A stretch of DNA of 64,000 nucleotides, taken from NCBI RefSeq assembly GCF_000455365.1, contig NZ_HG315684.1:457611-521610 (forward strand), read 5' to 3'. Shown piece by piece: positions 3,724-5,802 of the stretch. Numbering within the stretch: position 1 is the first letter of the stretch; each line of letters opens with the position of its first letter. The notes beneath the pieces were generated by a model, which ran no database searches, was not told where the DNA came from, and saw only the letters and a program-made list of their open reading frames with translations. Source of the DNA: Halopiger djelfimassiliensis (GTDB lineage: Archaea; Halobacteriota; Halobacteria; Halobacteriales; Natrialbaceae). A program made the translations under genes and the position numbers.

Positions 3724-4119
3724 TTACGGGCCGACCCCGCACTCGGGACGAACGGCGGTGGTTGGGAGGGCCTGTGGATGCGGTTGGGAGCGGCCGTCGT
3801 CCCACAGCGTGGAGTCGGCGTGCCGCCCGGCCCGAGTCGGTTCGTGATCGCGACTCGAGCCCGGAGCCTGCGGCCCGTTACTCGCTCGCGGGGTCGCGGG
3901 CGTCAGGTTCCTCGCTCGAGGTCCCGGCGTCTGACCGCCGATCGAGGATCCCGGCGAGACCGGACAGCCACACGGGCCGGCGGTGGCCTCGAGCGGGCCG
4001 GCCACCGACACCCGCAGGATCGGCGTCCCACAGCGCGGGCACGGCGTCGCCCACGACGGCGGATCGGGGTCGGTTCCGTCGGCGTCGTCGTCGGGAGTCT
4101 CGCGACGTCCGTCGGTCAT
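3724..4119 (-). CDS. Small CPxCG zinc-finger protein, possibly frameshifted
   Basis: The ATG at 4119 opens an acidic haloarchaeal-style N-terminus (MTDGRRETPDDDADGTD) and then a zinc-knuckle pattern: CPRCGTPIL at about 27-35 and PCGC about 24 residues later. After SPG (near residue 60) the open frame becomes poor in acid and rich in Pro, Arg and Ser for about 70 residues to 3724, unlike its neighbours. A one-base shift near 3945 would instead give an acidic tail (GILDRRSDAGTSSEEPD...) ending at 3878, which looks more natural. I read this as either a real frameshift or an assembly error; the zinc-finger half is the reliable part. Function unknown. Confidence 0.5.
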   Translation of the reverse strand: MTDGRRETPDDDADGTDPDPPSWATPCPRCGTPILRVSVAGPLEATAGPCGCPVSPGSSIGGQTPGPRARNLTPATPRASNGPQAPGSSRDHEPTRAGRHADSTLWDDGRSQPHPQALPTTAVRPECGVGP

Positions 4120-4322
4120 CGTCCCACCCGTTCGGTGCCGACGTCGCGGGCGAAAGCGGCGATACGGCCGGCCGACGCGGTCGGCTCGAGGCCCGCCCCT
4201 CGAGCCGCCGCGGCGGACGCAAAGCGGCGAGCCGGAACGGCGGGGCGGCGACCGCATCCGGAACGGACGTGTGCGGACGCTGTCGCTGGTCGGATCGGAC
4301 GGTACTGCCGTCGTGCGGGACG

Positions 4323-4329
4323 TTTATAT
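4323..4329 (+). promoter_or_regulatory. TATA box for the structured transcript
   Basis: TTTATAT, placing the expected transcription start near 4351, exactly where a dense block of inverted repeats begins. Confidence 0.5.
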
Positions 4330-4350
4330 CCCGGTAGAATGTACGCAATC

Positions 4351-4453
4351 ATGGCTTCAAAGCCGAGTGGGCTTTGGAAGCCACGTCTCGGGTGTCCCTA
4401 GCACCCGGGGCATTCAGCGAATGCCCTTCGGAACGTGACTTCCATTCTGCGTA
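4351..4453 (+). ncRNA. Candidate structured RNA (or leaderless 16-codon mini-ORF with structured tail)
   Basis: No protein-coding gene fits here, but the DNA is packed with inverted repeats. Hairpin A pairs 4353-4364 with 4370-4382 (12 pairs, one bulged G). Hairpin B pairs CGGGTG 4389-4394 with CACCCG 4402-4407. Hairpin C pairs GGGCATTC 4408-4415 with GAATGCCC 4419-4426 around a 3-base loop. An 11-base arm at 4376-4386 can pair with 4433-4443 (one mismatch), enclosing B and C and competing with hairpin A, so two alternative folds exist. A TATA box lies about 25 bases upstream. The same start also opens a 16-residue ORF (MASKPSGLWKPRLGCP, 4351-4401) whose stop lies in the loop of hairpin B. 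I do not recognise the family; the 3' end is not defined. Confidence 0.45.
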
Positions 4454-4752
4454 TTGCCGTCGGATAACTTATATTTACTGTTAGAAGTTTGATTGATCTC
4501 TGCGGACCGGCTGGCGGCAACCGCACGCGCCGCGATCGGCTCGAGTGGCAACCGGATGTCTGGGAAATCGGAACCTACCGCGCGAGTCCGCCGTCTCTCC
4601 GCGGGCGGCACGGTCCCCGCGTACTGAAGACTTGATCGCGTGGCGGGGCCGGGTGACGGAGACGTTCACCGACCGCGTCGTCGACGGTCCCTCGAATGAG
4701 TGTGGTATTCCGAATGCGCTCCGCCGTTCACGGATTATTCCGTAGTGGCTGG

Positions 4753-4783: not shown

Positions 4784-5359
4784 ATGAAAGAACCGCGCCC
4801 GGACCGGAAGGCGAACGCCGACGAACGCGCGGAGCCGCCGGATTTCGACGGGCTGACGCCCCCTCGAGAACTCGTTCGCGGTGAGCGCACGCGCGACGAT
4901 TTCTTCGATGCGGTTCTCGGACTCGATAGTCCTGCAACCGTCAGCGACGTCGCTGACCGCGCCGGCCACGGGGTCGACGCGGCGAGGGAGTATCTGGAGT
5001 GGTTCGAGCGGATGGGGATCGTCACGCAGGTCACCGAATCGCCGGCGACGTACGAGCGAAACCGGGAGTACCTGCGCTGGCGTCGCGTCCAGCGGCTCCG
5101 AAAGCAGTACGCTACCGATGACCTTCTCGAGTTCCTGAACGCGGCGGTAGAGCGCGACGAGAAATACGCCGAGCTGTTCGACGCCGACTCCCCGAGCGCG
5201 GTTTCGGTCACGGCACACGCATCGAGAACCGATCGATCGATAGCGGACGTCTGGAAGGACGTTTCCGCGTGGAAGACGACCCGTGAGCGGATCGCCCTCC
5301 TCGAACGGGCGCTCCCGACCGGATCCGGTACGTCGACCGAGGAACGGTCCGCCGTATGA
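4784..5359 (+). CDS. Winged-helix DNA-binding protein, likely antitoxin/regulator of a TumE-like pair
   Basis: Protein of 191 residues. Residues about 40-90 form a helix-turn-helix region (ATVSDVADRAGHGVDAAREYL, then a recognition-helix-like stretch), followed by a charged helical C-terminal half. It resembles the haloarchaeal HTH family often filed as DUF7342. Its stop overlaps the start of the next gene by 4 bases (ATGA), so the two are translated together. In toxin-antitoxin pairs of this layout the HTH gene comes first and represses the operon. Here that role is inferred from gene order and partner family, not shown by sequence. Confidence 0.7.
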   Translation: MKEPRPDRKANADERAEPPDFDGLTPPRELVRGERTRDDFFDAVLGLDSPATVSDVADRAGHGVDAAREYLEWFERMGIVTQVTESPATYERNREYLRWRRVQRLRKQYATDDLLEFLNAAVERDEKYAELFDADSPSAVSVTAHASRTDRSIADVWKDVSAWKTTRERIALLERALPTGSGTSTEERSAV

Positions 5360-5802
5360 CTGACGGCGGCGACGGGACGGAACGGCCCGACGACAGCAGC
5401 GGCGCGCCGACCGATTTCGATCGCCTCGAAATCATCGCGGAACGGCTGTCTACCGACGATCGCTTTGCCCGGGTCGTTCTTCGACCCGAGTTCGCTCCGG
5501 ATCGACTGGTATGCGTCTACGATTCCGGATTCTACCCGAGCAGCGTTCACACGGCCCGTCTGGAGATCGTGTGGTTCGAGAACGGGGACTTCTCGATCCA
5601 TTACCACGAGGAGCAGCGCGACGGAACGTTCGATCACCGATGGGACCGGCATCCGTCGGAGCACAACGCGCGTGACCACGTGCATCCGGGACCCGATGCG
5701 CCGACGCCGGGGGCGGACACGACGCATCCGCCGGACTGGCGTGACGTCCTCTCGATGGCCCTCGCCGAGATCGAGGACCGACAGCGGGCCTTTTGGACCT
5801 AA
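5356..5802 (+). CDS. TumE-like protein (DUF6516-type), putative toxin
   Basis: Protein of 148 residues with a compact core: PEFAPDRLVCVYDSGFYP, then LEIVWFENGDFSIHYHE, then WDRHPSEHNARDHVHPGP and a C-terminal DVLSMALAEIEDR helix. From memory, this YP..-ENGDF-HY-WDRHP-H..RDH-HP pattern matches haloarchaeal proteins annotated as toxin-antitoxin TumE family. The invariant His, Arg and Asp would suit a nucleic-acid-acting active site, but no activity is proven. It overlaps the upstream HTH gene by 4 bases. No membrane segment or signal is present. Alternative: a non-toxic partner of the regulator. Confidence 0.62.
   Translation: MTDGGDGTERPDDSSGAPTDFDRLEIIAERLSTDDRFARVVLRPEFAPDRLVCVYDSGFYPSSVHTARLEIVWFENGDFSIHYHEEQRDGTFDHRWDRHPSEHNARDHVHPGPDAPTPGADTTHPPDWRDVLSMALAEIEDRQRAFWT

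Follow-up and report, generated by a model that had tools for sequence, protein, structure and literature searches.

Structure of the locus

The window analysed is a stretch of 64,000 nt of the Halopiger djelfimassiliensis genome. At 4323–4453 it carries a structured element, which on the minus strand is framed by a TATA-like region on one side and by two overlapping reading frames on the other; the second of these encodes a small zinc-finger protein (Table 1). Beyond the TATA-like region, a DUF7342 gene and an uncharacterised 148-aa gene follow each other on the plus strand (4785–5802); similar pairs occur near two other copies of the element in our set, there on the other side.

A sequence-only reading of the plus strand had described three hairpins, A, B, and C, and a long-range arm (4376–4386/4433–4443) competing with hairpin A, and all of them are found in place. 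The complement of 4350–4449 (100 nt) folds with z = -4.97 relative to dinucleotide shuffles, and the plus strand with z = -3.96; for either strand, 0 of 200 shuffles are as good. The same reading had seen in the element a possible new structured haloarchaeal RNA that does not look like a tRNA. This agrees with the lack of an ARAGORN tRNA or tmRNA model match and of a match at or above the gathering score in the window for all 4227 Rfam families, the E-value search yielding only sub-threshold chance matches.

Two smaller features proposed there are present but do not stand as proposed. The TATA-like TTTATAT at 4323–4329 coincides with a hairpin loop of the minus-strand RNA and is missing from relatives outside the Natrialbaceae. 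The 16-codon ORF does end with a TAG (4399–4401) inside the loop of hairpin B, but its length and frame differ between the copies, and a leaderless 16-codon peptide is rejected on this ground.

Table 1. Coordinates of the features in and next to the element (window positions).
Feature	Position	Strand	Sequence and basis
Putative promoter TATA region of the minus-strand transcript	4467..4480	-	5'-CAGTAAATATAAGT-3' here; family consensus CAGTAGATATAAGT
Expected 5' end of the minus-strand leader	4446..4450	-	Placed by spacing, about 25 nt from the TATA region
P-long 5' arm, first element of the leader	4434..4443	-	GGAAGUCACG; pairs with 4376-4385; covaries across families
Hairpin C of the three-way junction	4408..4426	-	Fold; double-sided changes in 4 of 6 pairs
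Hairpin B	4389..4407	-	6-bp stem CGGGUG/CACCCG; fold and alignment
Hypervariable loop of hairpin B	4395..4401	-	TCCCTAG on the plus strand, CUAGGGA on the minus strand; 6-7 nt
Switching strand	4376..4385	-	CGUGGCUUCC; P-long 3' arm or hairpin A 5' arm; both pairings conserved
Hairpin A	4350..4385	-	In the outer stem, GAAGCC immediately before the AUG is paired, as is the AUG itself
AUG start codon at the leader end	4350..4352	-	CAT of the near-invariant plus-strand CATGG
Upstream ORF, 78 codons	4116..4352	-	MIAYILPGYKRPARR...; stop overlaps the zinc-finger start (ATGA at 4116-4119)
Hairpin D, within the upstream ORF	4316..4333	-	CGGGAU-AUAAA-CGUCCCG; the "TATA box" of the sequence-only reading; possible plus-strand antisense promoter
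Divergent CPxCG zinc-finger gene	3724..4119	-	MTDGRRETPDD...CPRCGTPI...GPCGC...; profile and codon-position selection

Distribution of the family

When 4300–4500 is used as a DNA query, the window's genome shows at least 13 copies, and 22 of 61 sampled genomes have matches. The covariance model built from 31 copies matches 84 of 125 Natrialbaceae genomes in 26 of 29 genera, the copy number reaching at least 29 per genome; H. djelfimassiliensis has about 20 copies (17 strong and a few divergent), and named carriers are Natrinema, Natrialba, Halostagnicola, Halovivax, Natronorubrum, and Halopiger. Some copies are located on megaplasmids. Other haloarchaeal families contain divergent relatives, weaker but consistent; for instance, one genus has a genome with 32 copies and another with 17, and Haladaptatus-type genomes have 14 and 7. 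A second, cross-family model gives E <= 1e-4 in 121 of 392 genomes of the order, and only six genomes of a phylum-wide sample of 197 match, all of them Natrialbaceae. The viral and phage collections contain no match to the element, hence an origin from a virus or phage is rejected.

Several leader copies reside together on one 219-kb contig. At each of the three loci read there, the leader adjoins the same 124-aa Cys-rich gene, and variable cargo, in one case with a DNA cytosine methyltransferase, lies between this gene and a repeated gene set.

Two mutually exclusive folds

The switching strand CGUGGCUUCC may pair either with the 5' arm of the leader (P-long) or with GAAGCCAUG, forming hairpin A and burying the AUG. 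The two folds had been proposed from this copy as a switch or attenuator, and dozens of relatives retain both pairings, showing compensatory changes; a comparison for homologues that lose the pairing finds the relatives preserving it. In the 50-sequence cross-family alignment, the fold with the free AUG (ON) shows 78 doubly compensated cells, compared with 29.8 in shuffles (0 of 500 as good), and 87% of cells are paired in register, compared with 32–50% in slid controls. All six positions of the hairpin B stem are paired in 50 of 50 diverse sequences, with compensatory changes at three of them. Moreover, relatives swap the three interacting segments jointly: they read GGAAGCC.../GGCUUCC/GAAGCC in one family, GGAAGA.../GGUCUUCC/GAAGACC in a second, and GAGAAC.../GGGUUCUC/AGAACCC in a third. 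By computation, the element has two mutually exclusive conserved folds, one of which is predicted to hide the start codon.

The predicted energies in this copy are -46.3 kcal/mol for the junction (AUG free) and -47.6 kcal/mol for hairpin A (AUG paired, OFF). Over 163 copies, the junction is favoured by a median difference of -2.9 kcal/mol. With energy parameters that are not for molar KCl, the ON fold is predicted to be more stable in 84% of the copies, so that the switch may be weak.

Strand of the working RNA

A G-U pair is tolerated in RNA and reads as A-C on the opposite strand. Read on the plus strand, P-long (4376–4384 with 4435–4443) comprises 1442 Watson–Crick cells, 126 A-C, and 4 G-U in 179 copies; on the minus strand, with G-U counted, 97% of the cells pair. 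The stem of hairpin D covaries, and 91 of 161 copies have an innermost pair there that reads C-A on the plus strand and, accordingly, G-U on the minus strand; the hairpin D pattern occurs at 18 genomic places with at most two mismatches (16 exact), and the reversed-pattern control at none. A palindromic repressor operator at 4316–4333 was also considered and rejected, as the C-A centre in the 91 copies is more in keeping with a hairpin in RNA than with symmetry in a DNA site.

Two helices show a bias that would favour the plus strand: the outer stem of hairpin A has 58 G-U against 9 A-C when read on it, and an extension of hairpin B is G-U-rich on the plus strand only (317 against 0). We read the latter as no helix on the working strand; it is superfluous where P-long, hairpin B, and hairpin C coexist as a three-way junction.

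Of 108 scored copies, 98 have the TATA-like motif 30 nt past the 3' arm, and the motif also appears in the logo of 179 copies. In the other families, this site is canonical (TTTATAA, TTTAAT; in some cases with a preceding GAAA) only in the minus-strand reading. Counting against the minus-strand reading, the Natrialbaceae motif is nearly symmetrical, and the Natrialbaceae logo has a small conserved bump on the plus strand, 24–26 nt downstream. At the other end of the element, the CAT of CATGG is conserved at 100%, 99%, and 100% (161 copies), and CATG is invariant in the cross-family alignment used; being a minus-strand AUG, the near-invariant CATGG supports a minus-strand leader.

Because the P-long pairing signal, the reverse-facing TATA, and the AUG with the zinc-finger gene at the other end agree, the working RNA is probably a minus-strand mRNA leader, and the plus-strand reading, with its strand, promoter, and ORF, is probably wrong. 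A plus-strand non-coding RNA as the main reading is rejected by the strand-specific pairing signal and the gene arrangement; a plus-strand transcript from 4351 could be an antisense RNA. The initial observation of a structured element is confirmed, and the interpretation given to it is supported in part. As in structured cis-regulatory leaders, the conserved structure lies directly upstream of a coding gene in the same orientation.

Genes downstream of the putative leader

The stop of the upstream ORF overlaps the zinc-finger start in 114 of 142 copies, with a stop-to-ATG offset of 4 (ATGA) in 76, 8 in 25, and 11–17 in 13 of them; therefore, translational coupling is proposed. The upstream peptide shows no protein-level selection, its codon differences having no third-position excess, and it is rejected as a selected protein for this reason; this is as expected if its role is coupling. 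The zinc-finger gene has 349, 233, and 1051 differences at codon positions 1, 2, and 3, respectively, in close pairs, indicating selection on the protein.

Among the 192 copies with full flanks, the zinc-finger profile matches upstream on the minus strand in 154, never upstream on the plus strand, and twice downstream. This minus-strand gene, with the motif CPxCG...PCGC, is the only recurring neighbour; no conserved gene was found on the 3' side of the element among the neighbourhoods of the copies. The protein has no Pfam or NCBIfam match above the cut-off, and is without annotation in the two public records examined.

About 20% of the copies, nine of them in the window's genome, lack a detected zinc finger, and the link between leader and zinc finger is therefore not universal. 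In one genus of another family, a 48-aa zinc protein starts at the AUG, and a second gene is coupled to it through an ATGA; in other cases, a 45-aa zinc protein or SWIM proteins (Haladaptatus) begin at this AUG, or it opens a 23–24-aa ORF with a 58-aa zinc protein behind it.

Nine leaders of the window's genome form a sub-family with CGAGACGTTTATGTCTCG and no zinc finger, and solo leaders of this kind are also seen in Natrinema and Halovivax. One divergent copy of the window's genome is followed by an 88-codon ORF that overlaps a 234-codon ORF starting with MANPTPTPIGVDLGEYNLY; the first 100 aa of the latter have no Pfam match above the cut-off. At three copies of this genome, adjoining N stretches mask part of the upstream context.

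Hypervariable loop of hairpin B

In 17 syntenic interspecies pairs, the loop of hairpin B diverges by 23.4%, its flanks by 6.7%, and the rest of the element by 4.5%; hence, the loop evolves 3–5 times faster than the flanks or the remainder. Three or more loop changes are seen in 6 of the 17 pairs, with 0.19 expected, and mismatches in close pairs amount to 38% in the loop compared with 0.3% in the adjoining strand. The 201 copies carry 114 different loop sequences. YUNR motifs are found in 81 loops on the minus strand (25 expected) and in 93 on the plus strand (53 expected); loops of the YUNR type occur in the CopA/CopT and RNAI/repZ systems, and a hypervariable loop on a conserved stem, as in CopA/CopT-type pairs, is what is seen here.

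Several readings of the loop were considered and rejected. Complements of the loop are not enriched in cis, within about 600 nt, or in another copy of the same genome, so pairing of either kind is dismissed. Inversion of the loop is discounted as well, as the loops of the syntenic pairs are, by inspection, not mutual reverse complements. Finally, the loop is not specific to the zinc finger, since near-identical zinc fingers in one Natrinema genome have loops that all differ. Separately, two leaders located about 4 kb apart in one genome are almost identical around the element save for the hairpin B loop (CGCCAA and TTTGTGG).

Taken as a pattern of sequence change, the loop suggests copy-specific RNA–RNA recognition, although neither the search in cis nor that among copies of one genome yielded a partner, which counts against it. 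An antisense RNA would be the obvious candidate partner, because its loop matches automatically. We put forward only tentatively, at somewhat less than an even chance, that the fast-changing loop of each copy is read by an RNA partner, so that a genome would have as many as about 30 zinc-finger genes under RNA control, each insulated from the others.

Proposed mechanism and alternative explanations

Judged by comparison of sequences, the case for the family, its competing helices, and its gene context is strong, and the element looks like a new, undescribed family of switch-like minus-strand mRNA leaders for small Cys-rich proteins. We consider it probable that the element is the structured 5' leader, of about 100 nt, of a minus-strand mRNA, that it forms a switch between two folds, and that it is coupled to the zinc finger. 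Transcription of the minus strand would start near 4446–4450 from the facing TATA at 4468–4474. In the three-way junction of P-long, hairpin B, and hairpin C, the AUG at 4352 would be free; in the other fold, the switching strand would pair with this AUG and the bases just before it (hairpin A), and initiation would be blocked. Ribosomes starting at this AUG would read the upstream ORF up to its stop at the ATGA, and the zinc-finger protein would be made by translational coupling. The trigger would most likely be an RNA recognising the copy-specific loop of hairpin B, e.g., an antisense RNA from the opposite strand.

This leader could form a CopA/CopT-like pair with an opposing transcript, which is an extension of the explanation above and not its opposite. 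Both strands would be transcribed, the plus-strand RNA from 4351 being an antisense RNA that binds the hairpin B loop, blocks translation of the upstream ORF and, hence, of the zinc finger, while divergence of the loops prevents cross-regulation of paralogues. A plus-strand TTTAT with a C/A start 28–29 nt downstream is near-invariant in the Natrialbaceae; the loops diversify between paralogues and orthologues on fixed stems; YUNR is enriched on both strands; and the geometry of leader-peptide coupling resembles that of plasmid R1 and I-complex control (PMC10724649 and its references). However, this TTTAT doubles as the hairpin D loop, relatives whose loops vary just as much lack it, and identical loops within a genome are avoided no more than under random dealing. 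We regard both the pair itself and its insulating role as possible but rather unlikely.

The leader might instead be autoregulated or metal-sensing, the zinc-finger protein or zinc binding the three-way junction and setting the switch. The presence of the leader before several different types of Cys-rich proteins across families would fit, but the loop does not track the protein, as in the Natrinema genome mentioned above, and leaders without zinc fingers occur; we find this explanation distinctly doubtful. An independent plus-strand small RNA from 4351 with alternative folds, the minus strand having no role, could draw on the TATA-like box and on the G-U tolerance of the hairpin B extension and the hairpin A outer stem, but is very improbable in view of the strand signal of P-long and hairpin D, the absence of the plus-strand TATA from the other families, and the arrangement of AUG, ORF, and zinc finger on the minus strand. 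Hardly any credence is left for a dispersed MITE-like mobile repeat in which the hairpins act as signals for transposition and regulate nothing: the copies are scattered, some in tandem, in duplicated units of about 350–500 bp (with ends visible only as limits of similarity), but the zinc finger is under protein selection, syntenic copies are retained between species, the compensatory structure extends across families, no terminal repeats are seen, and neither a transposase nor any other generally conserved gene besides the zinc finger is found within about 3 kb of the aligned copies.

Relation to known systems

To our knowledge, natural switch leaders are almost unknown in archaea. Translational switches are exemplified by the fluoride riboswitch of Thermococcus kodakarensis and a synthetic theophylline riboswitch in Haloferax volcanii, and a single experimentally determined archaeal riboswitch, not a haloarchaeal one, was named in 2021 (PMC8241225). 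In its predicted structure, the element resembles translational riboswitches and start-masking leaders: the two folds exclude each other, there is a junction domain, and a hairpin hides the AUG of the downstream gene. It differs in having no known ligand and no match in Rfam, in the dozens of paralogues that a genome may contain, in its single hypervariable loop, and in the proposed coupling via an overlapping upstream ORF.

Similarly to the CopA/CopT-tap-repA and RNAI/repZ systems of plasmid copy control (PMC10724649), there is a structured leader, a stable stem with a relative-specific loop, and a leader ORF coupled by overlap to the next gene, the last in geometry only. In contrast to them, the element is archaeal and mostly chromosomal, the antisense RNA is putative, and the downstream genes encode zinc-finger proteins and not a Rep protein or another replication initiator; a plus-strand TATA-like site from which an antisense RNA could cross the leader is seen only in the Natrialbaceae copies. 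The haloarchaeal sRNA132 and s479 are likewise intergenic and missed by gene finders; however, they are described as single sRNAs, whereas here a multicopy leader family lies on the strand of the adjacent gene.

If this reading is true, the element provides a large, testable leader family in cultivable strains, combining competing helices around the AUG, translational coupling, and a hypervariable loop; as the loop behaves like a specificity code, it may provide a naturally occurring collection of RNA regulators, dozens in number and separate from one another. It would also give a regulatory context to many unannotated genes of zinc-finger micro-proteins. The genes led by the element are of the same type as the haloarchaeal C(P)xCG zinc-finger micro-proteins, described as very small proteins with CPxCG motifs (PMC11241148; PMC6562870), the titles and abstracts of which make no mention of the leader or the coupling; they differ from these in the motif CPxCG...PCGC and in having no Pfam or NCBIfam match above the cut-off. 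The zinc finger of the window itself retains the CPxCG...PCGC core (3919–4060, minus strand) and continues beyond the point where its nearest paralogue (68 aa) stops, and its tail looks frame-shifted.
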